Assembly: GCA_017883385.1 (NCBI GenBank) | Contig: JADGNQ010000002.1 | Location: 1 to 64,000, forward strand | Length of the DNA: 64,000 nucleotides | Origin: Candidatus Sulfotelmatobacter sp. | GTDB lineage: Bacteria; Acidobacteriota; Terriglobia; Terriglobales; Acidobacteriaceae | Reading direction: 5' to 3' | Shown: positions 15,434 through 18,207 of the stretch, piece by piece | Position numbering within the stretch: the first letter of the stretch is position 1 | Layout: every line of letters starts with the position of its first letter | Notes under the pieces: model-generated | The model's input: the letters and a program-made list of their open reading frames with translations, nothing else | What the model was told of the DNA's origin: nothing | Databases searched by the model: none | Position numbers and translations under genes: made by a program

Positions 15434-16123
15434 CTACTTCGGCTGGGGAACAATGCGCAGATACGGCTTGGGCGACTTCCACCCCCCGGGATACTGTTTC
15501 TGCGCTTCCTCGTTCGAGACGCTGCCGCTGATGATGACGTCATCGCCGGGCTTCCAATTCGCGGGCGTTGCGACTTTGTGTTTCGCGGTGAGTTGAATCG
15601 AATCAATGACGCGCAGGATTTCGTCGAAGTTGCGGCCCGTAGTCATGGGATAGCTGAGCTGCAACTTTATCTTCTTGTCTGGACCGACCACGAAAACGGT
15701 GCGCACGGTAGCGTTGTCGGCAGCGGTGCGGCCTTCCGACGTGCTCCCGCTCGCGGCGGGCAGCATACCGTAGAGCTTCGCGATTTTGAGTTGCGGGTCG
15801 CCGATCATCGGGTAATTCACCTTGTGGCCCTGCGTCTCTTCGATGTCAACCGCCCACTTACTGTGGTTGGTCACCGGGTCGACGCTCAACCCAATAATCT
15901 TGACGTTGCGCTTGGCGAATTCCGGCTGCAGGCCCGCCATGGTGCCGAGTTCAGTGGTGCAGACGGGCGTGAAGTCTTTGGGATGCGAGAACAAGATGGC
16001 CCAGCCGTTACCGATCCATTCGTGGAAGTGGATCGTGCCTTGTGTCGTTTCAGCGGTGAAATCGGGGGCCGTGTCATTAATTCTGGGAACGCTGTAGGTT
16101 TCGGCTGCGGTCTCGATTGTCAT
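15434..16123 (-). CDS. 1-Cys peroxiredoxin (Prx6/AhpC-TSA family)
   Basis: The 229-residue enzyme reduces peroxides in the cytoplasm. The active-site motif is PKDFTPVCTTELG with peroxidatic Cys55. No other cysteine is present, so it must be recycled by an external thiol. The C-terminal Prx domain (DDVIISGSVSNEEAQKQYP, WKSPKPYLR) is of full family length. GAGGAG lies 11 nt before the ATG. Upstream on the same strand are a terminator hairpin, a Cys-containing mini-ORF and a sigma70-type promoter, giving a leader of about 200 nt. Expression is therefore probably controlled by attenuation, perhaps linked to cysteine or thiol status. Confidence 0.93.
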   Translation of the reverse strand: MTIETAAETYSVPRINDTAPDFTAETTQGTIHFHEWIGNGWAILFSHPKDFTPVCTTELGTMAGLQPEFAKRNVKIIGLSVDPVTNHSKWAVDIEETQGHKVNYPMIGDPQLKIAKLYGMLPAASGSTSEGRTAADNATVRTVFVVGPDKKIKLQLSYPMTTGRNFDEILRVIDSIQLTAKHKVATPANWKPGDDVIISGSVSNEEAQKQYPGGWKSPKPYLRIVPQPK

Positions 16124-16210
16124 ATTTCTTTTCTCTCCTCGTGGTTTTCAAATCGCTAAGATTCGGAAAATCCGCCCCCCGGGGCTCCAGATCTGGCACA
16201 AAAGCGGATG

Positions 16211-16243
16211 AAAATAAAACCCACCCGCTTCACCGGGTGGGTT
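16211..16243 (-). terminator. Intrinsic terminator (attenuator) in the prx leader
   Basis: A perfect 10-bp stem (16218-16227 with 16234-16243) and a 6-nt loop are followed on the minus strand by TTTTATTTT. It lies between the mini-ORF and the peroxiredoxin gene on the same strand, with no other minus-strand gene to terminate, so it would act as an attenuator. Its 5' arm contains CAACCCA, which can instead pair with TGGGTTG inside the mini-ORF. Confidence 0.75.
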
Positions 16244-16263
16244 GGGAAGAATCTCGCTGATCC

Positions 16264-16326
16264 CTATCCACACGCCGGCGCTGGTCGACAACAACCCATG
16301 GCCCCGGCGATGGAAGGACGAATCAT
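16264..16326 (-). CDS. Cys-containing leader peptide upstream of peroxiredoxin
   Basis: The mini-ORF encodes 20 residues ending MGCCRPAPACG and TAG, with codons TGT-TGT and a later TGT. The ATG at 16326 is exactly where transcription should begin from the promoter at 16333-16361, so the message would be leaderless; no Shine-Dalgarno is present. A second in-frame ATG is at 16299. The tandem Cys codons sit in a region that can form a hairpin (CGCCGG at 16304-16309 with CCGGCG at 16273-16278) and an alternative pairing with the terminator. Cys-codon leader ORFs upstream of sulfur genes are known in Actinobacteria; I know of no described case with this sequence. The role is inferred from layout. 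Confidence 0.55.
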   Translation of the reverse strand: MIRPSIAGAMGCCRPAPACG

Positions 16327-16332
16327 CTTGTT

Positions 16333-16361
16333 AGGATAAGAGCGCCGACGGCCACTGTCAA
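16333..16361 (-). promoter_or_regulatory. Sigma70-type promoter of the prx leader transcript
   Basis: On the minus strand, a perfect -35 TTGACA (16361-16356) is followed by a 17-bp spacer and TATCCT (16338-16333). The predicted start, 7 nt further, is the A of the leader-peptide ATG at 16326. Confidence 0.7.
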
Positions 16362-16401
16362 ACGCTCGGGTTTGCCTGTGTTGGTGCAGTCGAAGATGGA
16401 C

Positions 16402-16560
16402 GATTCGTATCAGGCCATCGCTTCAGCGATACCGCCAAAGCACATCGGACTCCAACGGCTTTCGCTGCTGCGGGTTTGACCGCCGCAGTCGCAGTGGCTA
16501 AAGCCGAGGTGTGTGGCGTGCTTCTGCGGCATGCCTAAGAGGCATGCCCTGATACGACTC
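16402..16560. repeat. Repeat family B, copy 1 (terminal inverted repeats)
   Basis: The element of about 159 bp is bounded by GATTCGTATCAGG and the near-complement CCTGATACGACTC. Each end is followed internally by a small hairpin (ATCGC-TTCA-GCGAT on the left, GCATGCC/GGCATGC on the right). It occupies most of the gap between the peroxiredoxin leader and the PhzF gene. Related copies lie at 29168 and 47884. Confidence 0.65.
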
Positions 16561-16680
16561 TCGCTCAGACTGCCCAGGCCCTCTCGCCGCAGAATGCGAT
16601 CGTTGCATTTTTTCTGCATCGCCTCTAGACGCCACGCATCCTTTCTCTAACACGGCAATTCAGGCAATCCGGGACTACTC

Positions 16681-17574
16681 ATGAGCACGCAGATGCGACG
16701 GCTTGCGATGGCGCAGTGGGACGTCTTCTCTTCCAAGTCGCTCGAAGGAAATTCCCTGGCCGTATTCTTCGACGCTCGTGCGCTCAGTGACGCCGAGATG
16801 CATGCGCTGGCCAAGGAAATGAATCTCTCGGAGACGACCTTCATCTTTCCCCGCGATCAGGAGACCGAACACGCACGCGGCGTGCGGGTAAGAATCTTCA
16901 CCGTGCAGGAAGAACTGCCATTTGCGGGCCATCCGACGCTGGGAACAGCTTTCGGCTTGCGTGCTGAAAGCCGGGCCAGGGAGATCGCGCTTGACCTGAA
17001 CGTGGGCAAGGTGCCGGTGCGATTTGAAGACCCTGCGGGTCAGCCGACGTTCGCTGAGATGACGCAAGTAGATCCCGTCTTCGGAGTTCAGCACGACCGC
17101 GAGGCCGTGGCGCGGGTTACGGGACTACGCATCGAGGATTTCGACCCGGCGCTTCCGATCGAGACAGTGTCGACCGGGTTGCCGTACACGGTGACGCCGT
17201 TGAAGTCTCTGGCCGTGATCCAGAAGTTACGGCTGAACTTGAGCTGCGCCGACGACTACCTGGAGAAAACCGGCGGAAAGTTCTTTTACTTCGTGTCGCG
17301 TGAAACCGTCGATCCCGACGCGCGCCTGCACGCCAGAATGCTGTTCTACAACGGCGAAGATCCCGCCACCGGCTCGGCGGCAGGCTGCACCGCCGCGTGG
17401 ATGGCGGCCCACGACGTGGCCCGATCGGACGAGCGCGTCCTCATCGAGCAGGGCCTGGAAATGCAGCGGCCCAGCCGGATCTTCGTTCGCGCTTCGCGTC
17501 AAGATAACCGGATAGTTAACGTTCGTGTCGGCGGCAACGCAATCGAGGTTTTGCGCGGCGAAGTTTTCCTCTAG
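16681..17574 (+). CDS. PhzF family protein
   Basis: The 297-residue protein matches the phenazine-biosynthesis-like fold: GNSLAVFFDA near the N terminus, the catalytic glutamate in NLSETTF, the conserved ELPFAGHPTLG and GEDPATGSAAG. Characterised members are isomerases or epimerases acting on small acids; most bacterial homologues have no known substrate, and no phenazine genes are nearby. There is no strong ribosome-binding site at the ATG at 16681; ATG codons at residues 5 and 10 are alternatives. Confidence 0.9.
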   Translation: MSTQMRRLAMAQWDVFSSKSLEGNSLAVFFDARALSDAEMHALAKEMNLSETTFIFPRDQETEHARGVRVRIFTVQEELPFAGHPTLGTAFGLRAESRAREIALDLNVGKVPVRFEDPAGQPTFAEMTQVDPVFGVQHDREAVARVTGLRIEDFDPALPIETVSTGLPYTVTPLKSLAVIQKLRLNLSCADDYLEKTGGKFFYFVSRETVDPDARLHARMLFYNGEDPATGSAAGCTAAWMAAHDVARSDERVLIEQGLEMQRPSRIFVRASRQDNRIVNVRVGGNAIEVLRGEVFL

Positions 17575-17784
17575 CTCCGAGCGCACAAGCTGCGGAAAAC
17601 ACTGCCACTCACCAGCGCGCAGGAAAATCAATGGCCAGATAGTCCCATTGGCATCGGCGGCACTTTACAGAGAGCGTTCTTCCCGTTAGCATCCTTCTCG
17701 CTCTGACATTCTTCATATTGAGAAAAGCTGCTGTTGGTTTTGCGATCGGCTGAACCGGTTGCGCCAACAGGTTGCGGAAGGCTG

Positions 17785-18207
17785 ATGAAACCAAAGCGCA
17801 CCATCCTATCTGTAGATGACAACGAACAGTCTCTGTCCCATCGCAAAATCATGCTGGAAACCCGAGGATACCGCGTGGCCAGCTTCTCGCGCGGAGAGGA
17901 AGCCCTGGCGCGTTTCCAACAGGGCGGAATCGACCTGGTGATCGCCGACATGGCGATGCCCGGACTGGACGGCCCGCAACTGATCGCCAAGATCAAGGAT
18001 GTGTCGCCACACATTCCTGCCATTCTTATCTCCAGTAAAGTGCGCATCTACGATCATGAATCCAAGGCGGACGTCTTCCTCGCCAAAGGAATGTATGCGC
18101 CTGTCGATCTGCTGGAACGCGTCCGGCAATTGCTCGTGCGCAAGCGCGGGCCCAAGCGCATGCAACAGCGGCCCCCAGAAATTGCACGGCAAGTCGGCGC
18201 GGCCTGA
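17785..18207 (+). CDS. Single-domain response regulator
   Basis: The 140-residue CheY-like receiver has an intact active site: VDDN (Asp11, Asp12), the phosphoacceptor Asp55 (LVIADMAMPG), Ser in ISS, and Lys in FLAKG. It ends in a basic tail (RKRGPKRMQQRP) rather than an output domain. The ATG at 17785 has GGAAGG 4 nt upstream; the frame runs back to 17734, but those residues do not belong to the fold. No kinase is adjacent. Its partner is unknown. Confidence 0.88.
   Translation: MKPKRTILSVDDNEQSLSHRKIMLETRGYRVASFSRGEEALARFQQGGIDLVIADMAMPGLDGPQLIAKIKDVSPHIPAILISSKVRIYDHESKADVFLAKGMYAPVDLLERVRQLLVRKRGPKRMQQRPPEIARQVGAA

Follow-up and report, generated by a model that had tools for sequence, protein, structure and literature searches.

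Upstream of a 1-Cys peroxiredoxin gene (prx) of Candidatus Sulfotelmatobacter sp. lies what appears, from sequence comparison, to be a conserved cysteine attenuator: real by comparison, classical in design, apparently leaderless and unexpected in its target. Comparison and computation reveal, in the window (i.e., the whole stretch of 64,000 nucleotides analysed), a short open reading frame (ORF) with Cys codons, a promoter, a terminator and an alternative pairing, and, in this and related genomes, Cys-rich leaders of the same layout ahead of sulfur genes. The leader is very probably a ribosome-mediated transcription attenuator which reads the supply of charged tRNA-Cys and has taken in prx as a target. 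Three features of a leader-peptide attenuator are present, i.e., (i) a run of codons for one amino acid; (ii) an intrinsic terminator; (iii) a mutually exclusive antiterminator, the last by computation only.

According to the proposed mechanism, the transcript would start on the leader ATG or close beside it, with a ribosome trailing RNA polymerase, as deduced from the spacing between promoter and ATG. When cysteinyl-tRNA is plentiful, the ribosome would reach the stop codon and cover the ORF end; the 5' arm of the terminator would then pair with its own 3' arm and transcription would end short of prx. With little cysteinyl-tRNA, stalling at the tandem Cys codons would leave the ORF end (GTGTGGGTAGGG and the bases around it) free to pair with the terminator 5' arm, no terminator would form and prx would be transcribed. 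The leaderless start, the stalling, and the read-through with its size are what we infer; the natural trigger would be sulfur starvation or the loss of cysteine to oxidation.

Layout and conservation of the prx leader

Every element listed in the preliminary description is present on the minus strand of the window (Table 1), i.e., the promoter, the 20-codon Cys ORF opening on an ATG, the terminator, whose stem begins 20 nt past the leader stop codon, and the strong ribosome-binding site of prx. The leader ATG (16326) is located 6 nt past the -10 hexamer. In this single sequence, the elements do not go beyond chance: there is 1 promoter-like site versus 0.6 expected from shuffles and 2 terminator-like sites versus 2.0 expected, and the whole-leader fold is ordinary (z of -0.79 versus shuffles). 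The case for a switch thus rests on comparison. An Rfam scan of positions 15900-16700 gave no family, its two matches being both sub-threshold; on the leader strand, Trp_leader reached 15.5 bits versus a gathering score of 41.

Table 1. Features of the prx leader region and their coordinates in the window.
Feature	Position	Strand	Details
Sigma-70 type promoter	16333..16361	-	-35 TTGACA 16361-16356, 17-nt spacer, -10 TATCCT 16338-16333
Leader ORF, apparently leaderless or near-leaderless	16264..16326	-	20 codons, MIRPSIAGAMGCCRPAPACG; stop TAG 16266-16264
Cys codons of the leader ORF	16293-16288 (tandem codons 12-13); 16272-16270 (last Cys codon, 19)	-	
Antiterminator 5' strand (predicted)	16261..16278	-	CCGGCGTGTGGATAGGGA; ORF end, stop codon and few bases; predicted duplex, pair counts, swap test
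Antiterminator 3' strand (predicted)	16233..16247	-	TCCCAACCCACCCGG; overlaps the terminator 5' arm; predicted duplex, pair counts
Intrinsic terminator	16211..16243	-	Stem 16243-16218 (10 bp, loop 6); T-rich tail to about 16211
1-Cys peroxiredoxin (Prx6 type) gene, prx	15434..16123	-	229 aa; Pfam AhpC-TSA 5.5e-30, 1-cysPrx_C 1.2e-14
prx Shine-Dalgarno sequence	16140-16133	-	GAGGAGAG; from sequence; prx ATG at 16123
PhzF-like gene	16681-17574		Divergent from prx, other flank of the leader region

The peroxiredoxin was searched for in 61 genomes (its own and 60 relatives) at E <= 1e-60; a match was obtained in 34 of them and 30 loci were fetched. The whole module, i.e., promoter, Cys ORF and terminator, is found in 27 of these 30 loci, which supports the earlier proposal of a Cys-codon leader peptide and terminator laid out as an attenuator before a 1-Cys peroxiredoxin (AhpC-TSA and 1-cysPrx_C domains). 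The host is a soil acidobacterium whose closest named relatives belong to Terriglobia/gp1. It is absent from the other three: L022, of the same genus, and L030 and L034, of other families. In all 27 aligned leaders, (i) the -35 box is an exact TTGACA, accompanied by TATNCT; (ii) the start codon, ATG or GTG, is located 35-37 nt from the -35 box (in L021 it is a GTG at 35 nt, an ATG being at 31); (iii) the ORF has a length of 16-23 codons and contains tandem Cys codons; (iv) a GC-rich stem followed by a T-rich tail constitutes an intrinsic terminator, the core of which (CCACCC / GGGTGG) is identical throughout. Conservation of Cys codons and terminator in relatives had been put forward as a check, and it holds for the 27 leaders.

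In the aligned loci, between 84 and 432 nt separate the beginning of the terminator from that of the prx match. This variable distance, together with the own Shine-Dalgarno sequence of prx in the window, does not support the translation-coupled control that had been suggested earlier. The same distance bears on translational attenuation, in which a stalled ribosome would free the ribosome-binding site of prx and the hairpin would be no true terminator. Leaderless polycysteine ORFs are reportedly a mycobacterial hallmark of such control, and three leaders of the family lack the terminator 3' arm and keep the ORF and the pairing partner. However, the GC-rich stem and T-rich tail of all 27 aligned leaders, the stretch of DNA left between terminator and prx, and an antiterminator which competes with the terminator arm and not with the Shine-Dalgarno sequence make translational attenuation improbable to a high degree.

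In L012, L026, L031 and L033 (and, more weakly, in L008), a common element like AACCCTAGTA..CTGATAGACTTTA is located between terminator and prx; it is possibly a second promoter or a regulator site.

A covariance model (R1) was built from the 27 prx leaders. Full-length matches (E <= 1.4e-17) are found in 38 of 45 genus genomes, the seven others having no R1 match or a terminator-only match. Among the 18 genus genomes outside the training set, 11 have a full-length match; the leader is followed by prx, or by its first codons before the contig end, in 10 of these 11, and in the remaining one (L154) the contig ends 259 nt past the leader.

For the other genera of the family, the 27 best-scoring prx loci were considered, which covers about half of 54 genomes. 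A Cys-rich leader ORF is present at 17 of these loci and no leader at 10, one of which has only 124 nt of upstream sequence. Fourteen of the 17 Cys leaders have a terminator (11 by pattern and 3 by eye). L274, L278 and L279 keep the Cys ORF and the antiterminator partner, the terminator 3' arm and the T tract being missing; these are possibly decayed attenuators or leaders with a different output. In L187, L253, L255, L295 and L298 (genus g20), a GCTAGCTTAGCTGGC-like stretch is found before the leader in place of an evident TTGACA.

On a prx tree of 61 rows, with low backbone support, the leader label is clustered, i.e., about five changes versus a mean of 13.7 after shuffling; L285, with no more than 124 nt upstream, was left out, and five rows from another genus had been chosen for having the leader. 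The leader was thus probably gained or lost more than once. L125 (in G196) and L296 (in G140) have a Cys leader before a different, more divergent 1-Cys Prx-type gene (identified by Pfam for L125 and by eye for L296), which suggests more than one uptake of the leader. On a small contig (C165) of G248, a genome of another family, the leader L121 shares 118 nt without a mismatch with that of L014; it is likely a bin contamination.

Cys codons are not used in the same manner in leaders and in genes. The 27 prx leaders contain 132 Cys codons, i.e., 96 TGT and 36 TGC, versus 22 TGT and 88 TGC in 25 long ORFs of the window and 0 TGT and 34 TGC in 21 prx coding sequences (of the 30). Leaders thus favour the Cys codon that genes avoid; the Fisher value for this contrast is too small, since relatedness keeps the leaders from being independent. 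Some leaders contain runs of as many as six Cys.

Predicted antiterminator pairing and direction of control

The ORF end (...GTGTGGGTAGGG) is a conserved antiterminator strand, able to base-pair with the 5' arm of the terminator. Typically, the ORF end and stop region CGTGTGGGTAGGGA pairs with TTCCCAACCCACCCGG, located before and in the terminator 5' arm. This duplex is predicted in all 27 prx leaders, with energies of -13.8 to -25.7 kcal/mol versus -14.8 to -20.2 kcal/mol for the terminator. The antiterminator core found in the window, GTGGATAGGG, makes a poorer pairing partner than GTGGGTAGGG, the common form. The last Cys codon has been lost from the ORF in five of the 27 leaders (L011, L017, L019, L021 and L029), where GCGGGTAGGG or GTGGGTAGGG is retained; this points to a constraint on the RNA rather than on the peptide at the ORF end.

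Two other pairings had been proposed from the window and both exist there. As an antiterminator, TGGGTTG/CAACCCA is not general, since GGGTTG occurs in only 4 of 36 leaders; as for the CGCCGG/CCGGCG hairpin around the Cys codons, both halves are found in only 10 of 36. No strong conserved pause or protector hairpin, separate from these structures, was found in the 27 leaders, for which RNAalifold gave three weak pairs within the ORF.

In alignment A1, 88.7% of 293 cells are standard-paired versus 29.9-61.7% when slid, a comparison which leans towards the tested structure since the pairing was drawn from these very sequences. Four of the 11 pairs are changed on both sides, and 21 of 500 shuffles reach as many; the number of double-change cells is equalled by 8 of 500 shuffles, the percentage paired is reached by 71 of 500 and the pair types by 91 of 500. 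Covariation, which had also been put forward as a check, is modest for the antiterminator, and the sequences are related. It is nil for the terminator, which RNAalifold recovers from the 27 prx leaders, since this terminator is invariant.

The partners of the antiterminator were also swapped between leaders. Own pairing is better in the 36 prx leaders tested, where 84 of 20000 permutations equal it; the corresponding numbers are 82 of 20000 for 23 leaders of sulfite-reductase-type genes (sir) of the genus and 693 of 20000 for 18 sir leaders of families f5/f7, relatedness not being corrected in any of the three. The effect is small for prx (own -17.9 versus swapped -17.3 kcal/mol). Compared with mononucleotide-shuffled ORF ends, the prx pairing is only moderately strong (mean z of -1.79); at most 2 of 200 shuffles are as good for 8 of 36 prx leaders, 12 of 23 genus sir leaders and 4 of 18 f5/f7 sir leaders. 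For these tests and for the footprint tests below, the prx set corresponds to the 38 genus matches minus L176, which was not listed, and L032, for which no terminator was called, and the genus sir set to 26 in-frame Cys ORFs with L205, L212 and L214 left out. The f5/f7 sir set was hand-picked, leaving out L128, L179, L232, L236, L238, L240 and L243 (incomplete or atypical), the repeats L225-L227 and L231, and a separate group of loci.

The first tandem Cys codon is located 27-30 nt before the stop codon in 31 of 36 prx leaders. With this spacing, a ribosome stalled at the first tandem Cys codon would end before the antiterminator strand, while at the stop codon it would cover that strand. In the footprint model, the ribosome covers 16 nt on the upstream side of the first A-site base and 12 nt on its downstream side, and the RNA is taken only up to the terminator loop. 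Under this model, upstream RNA holds the 5' arm of the terminator in 36/36 prx leaders when the ribosome stalls at the first tandem Cys codon, in 5/36 when it stalls at the last Cys codon and in 0/36 when it stands at the stop codon. For sir leaders, stall versus stop gives 23/23 versus 0/23 in the genus and 16/18 versus 0/18 in f5/f7. The arm is also held in 24/36 prx leaders with no ribosome (not in that of the window, 0.09), so that the model does not show termination as the untranslated default.

The result at the stop codon is nearly built in, since the footprint there blocks most of the upstream RNA. Moreover, dinucleotide-shuffled segments still exceed 0.5 in 828 of 1440 prx cases, and shuffled sir segments in 552 of 920 (genus) and 419 of 720 (f5/f7), the control being weak for sir leaders. 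At least 39 of 40 shuffles are beaten by 24 of 36 prx leaders, 3 of 23 genus sir leaders and 5 of 18 f5/f7 sir leaders. These shuffle controls temper the footprint result, and expression of prx when charged tRNA-Cys is low is therefore graded as the best-supported direction only, by footprint geometry.

The preliminary description considered that the direction of control could not be settled by reading; the conserved geometry of the ORF-end antiterminator predicts, in this model, that prx is ON at low cysteine. With the opposite polarity, a stall at the Cys codons would cover the antiterminator and low cysteine would switch prx off. The GGGTTG of the window, beside the first Cys codons, can indeed pair with CAACCC in this sense; however, its restriction to four leaders out of 36, whereas the ORF-end antiterminator is general and predicted to form in 36/36 with a ribosome at the first tandem Cys codon, renders this polarity extremely unlikely.

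The sir leader and leaders of other genes

prx is not a cysteine-biosynthesis gene, whereas the NIR_SIR gene of the same genome and other sulfur genes do fit cysteine metabolism. A single NIR_SIR protein was found in this genome (two matches in one ORF, domains confirmed by Pfam); it is closest to the NirA-type and ferredoxin nitrite/sulfite reductase models, below their curated cut-offs. Ahead of its gene lie a promoter, a Cys-rich leader (MSSSQNLRATCCCTCCCCACVCTGAGRLLT) and a terminator (fold z of -4.01). With R1, the own genome yielded 6 matches up to E 10, and the sir locus was not among them. A second model (R2) was built from 13 sir leaders, including that of the own genome, and no prx leader; it recovers the prx leader of the window at E 9.0e-11. 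All 41 genus genomes searched contain an R2 match at E <= 0.1, some of these matches being prx leaders or terminator-only. A Cys-run ORF shows, in the frame that was read, in 26 of 30 genus sir loci; among the remaining four, L199, L200 and L224 were apparently read out of frame and L220 at a wrong offset.

R1 also matches leaders such as MGKRLHSGDCMCCCTSAPACGG directly before sulfite-reductase-type genes of family f5 (L127 by Pfam, the others by eye). Elsewhere in the class, Cys-rich leaders precede, with one or a few cases each, genes of the PALP family (CysK-like), with a PAPS_reduct domain (CysD-like) and of siroheme-synthase type, as well as TauE (by eye only for L143), rhodanese, NMT1-type substrate-binding and conserved membrane protein genes. 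Outside the class, one or a few examples are found before tetrapyrrole methylase and Sulf_transp protein genes.

Leaders of other pathways contain other codons. Aspartokinase leaders are Thr/Ile- or Thr/Met-rich, including one in the own genome (L305, G000:C283, about 17751-17790, minus strand), where an AA_kinase aspartokinase gene lies behind a leader ORF, MKTLIHKNARITSTGTGMSTRITCLLEDGNG, with Thr/Ile; its terminator closely resembles that of the sir leader. In L294 (G600, another family of the phylum), a trpE-like gene lies behind a leader with ...SRYYWWWCHS..., a probable Trp attenuator. The choice of leader codons thus follows the pathway. This bears on the reading in which the Cys-rich peptide would itself be functional (as a thiol- or metal-binding micropeptide, or as a metal or oxidant arrest peptide), the terminator just ending a short gene. 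The six Cys in a row of some leaders are in line with such a role, and a trans-acting leader peptide is reported in the consulted part of one source (PMC7298713). However, the residues outside the Cys run vary, the last Cys is dispensable while its DNA is kept, and codon identity tracks the downstream pathway (Thr/Ile or Trp elsewhere), so that a functional peptide has only a very slight probability.

A LysR-family-like regulator ORF (by eye) is located beside the L305 aspartokinase gene, at about 2695-1781 (minus strand) and a few kb from sir; it could act on sulfur genes as well. Terminators are also found before DAHP-synthase-like genes (by eye) in L131, L133, L135, L144 and L183, one of them with an aromatic-rich mini-ORF, MFAARRFWSYYFST; aromatic amino acid attenuators are thus possible in the class.

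These five DAHP-synthase-like loci were not counted as Cys leaders, nor were the 5S rRNA terminator L139, L129 and the aspartokinases L146, L147, L249, L252, L263 and L305 (L252 and L305 by Pfam). Terminator-only or unclear matches (L184, L188-L192, L248 and L256) were set aside, as were L300 and L301, where a PAPS-reductase-type gene (Pfam for L300) and a terminator are present and the Cys ORF was not found. Gene names of the matches set aside were given by eye unless Pfam is stated, and the reading covered the matches other than L116-L120 (weak, own genome), L136, L137, L141, L148 and L149. It must be noted that the tallies at E <= 0.01 (46/299 and 172/399) and at E <= 1e-5 in the phylum (15/297) include non-Cys attenuators, and are thus not counts of Cys leaders.

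Relation to known systems and significance

Classical attenuators (trp, his and thr leaders) consist of an ORF with regulatory codons, an intrinsic terminator and a mutually exclusive antiterminator, stalling leading to read-through. The prx leader resembles them by its codon run, its terminator and its mutually exclusive antiterminator. It differs from them in that (i) its start appears leaderless; (ii) its target, a peroxiredoxin, does not serve to make the amino acid that is sensed; (iii) it has no strong conserved separate pause or protector hairpin.

Mycobacterial polycysteine leaders are said to be leaderless, reportedly by Canestrari in 2020. In the consulted parts of two sources, the leaders of mycobacterial cys operons have Cys runs near the end of short ORFs with no conserved terminators, Rho being suggested (PMC1262725), and the control by Cys leaders is described as translational (PMC13236596). 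As far as these parts go, the present leaders are similar in their Cys runs near the end of a short ORF before sulfur genes and in their apparently leaderless start (35-37 nt from the -35 box in 27/27), and differ in the intrinsic terminator (27/27) and the antiterminator.

The uORFC-8-2 motif, located before cysS in Rhodobacterales, is described in the accessible part of its source as an ORF with tandem Cys codons followed by an intrinsic terminator, the proposed signal being cysteinyl-tRNA; its Cys codons are mainly UGC, the tandem pair most often occupies codons 14-15, and no gene other than cysS, in a single order, carries the motif (PMC8632094). On that account the prx leader is alike, i.e., a short tandem-Cys ORF and then an intrinsic terminator. 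Unlike in uORFC-8-2, TGT prevails here, and in Acidobacteriota the leaders are found ahead of sir, prx and further sulfur genes. The same part of that source describes PBC-28-3, a structured motif before ahpC-like genes, with no mention of Cys codons (PMC8632094).

LsfA of Pseudomonas is, in the portions consulted, a 1-Cys peroxiredoxin induced by sulfate starvation (PMC4199769, PMC12581299). In both cases a Prx6-type enzyme is tied, here by prediction, to sulfur limitation; the link here is a Cys-codon leader, unlike LsfA, for which those portions mention no cysteine leader attenuator. One of them presents the reason for antioxidant induction in sulfur starvation as largely unexplored and proposes an iron-based one for Pseudomonas (PMC12581299). 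Since the link is here a short DNA element which can be mutated codon by codon, the cause of this induction becomes testable.

In the open literature (titles and beginnings of abstracts, subscription papers being mostly outside), no report was found of an attenuator with a Cys leader, be it before a peroxiredoxin gene or in Acidobacteriota. Cysteine attenuation in Acidobacteriota is thus without earlier assignment, as far as the searches of this literature reach. According to the part consulted of a 2010 source, almost none of the attenuators predicted in Acidobacteria had an assigned function (PMC2965389). The present leaders would give functions to attenuators in that phylum. They would define a cysteine-attenuation regulon which includes genes for sulfite reductase, cysteine synthase, siroheme, sulfur transport and sulfurtransferase, and would tie a peroxiredoxin directly to cysteine supply.

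A further reading, tentative and rather doubtful, is that the leader acts as a translation-based oxidant sensor: peroxide would drain cysteine (to cystine, or by hindered charging), the TGT run would bring ribosomes to a halt, and prx would be switched on jointly with sulfite reductase, no dedicated redox protein being needed. If this is true, sulfur starvation and peroxide stress would, in Acidobacteriota, share cysteinyl-tRNA charging as their signal.
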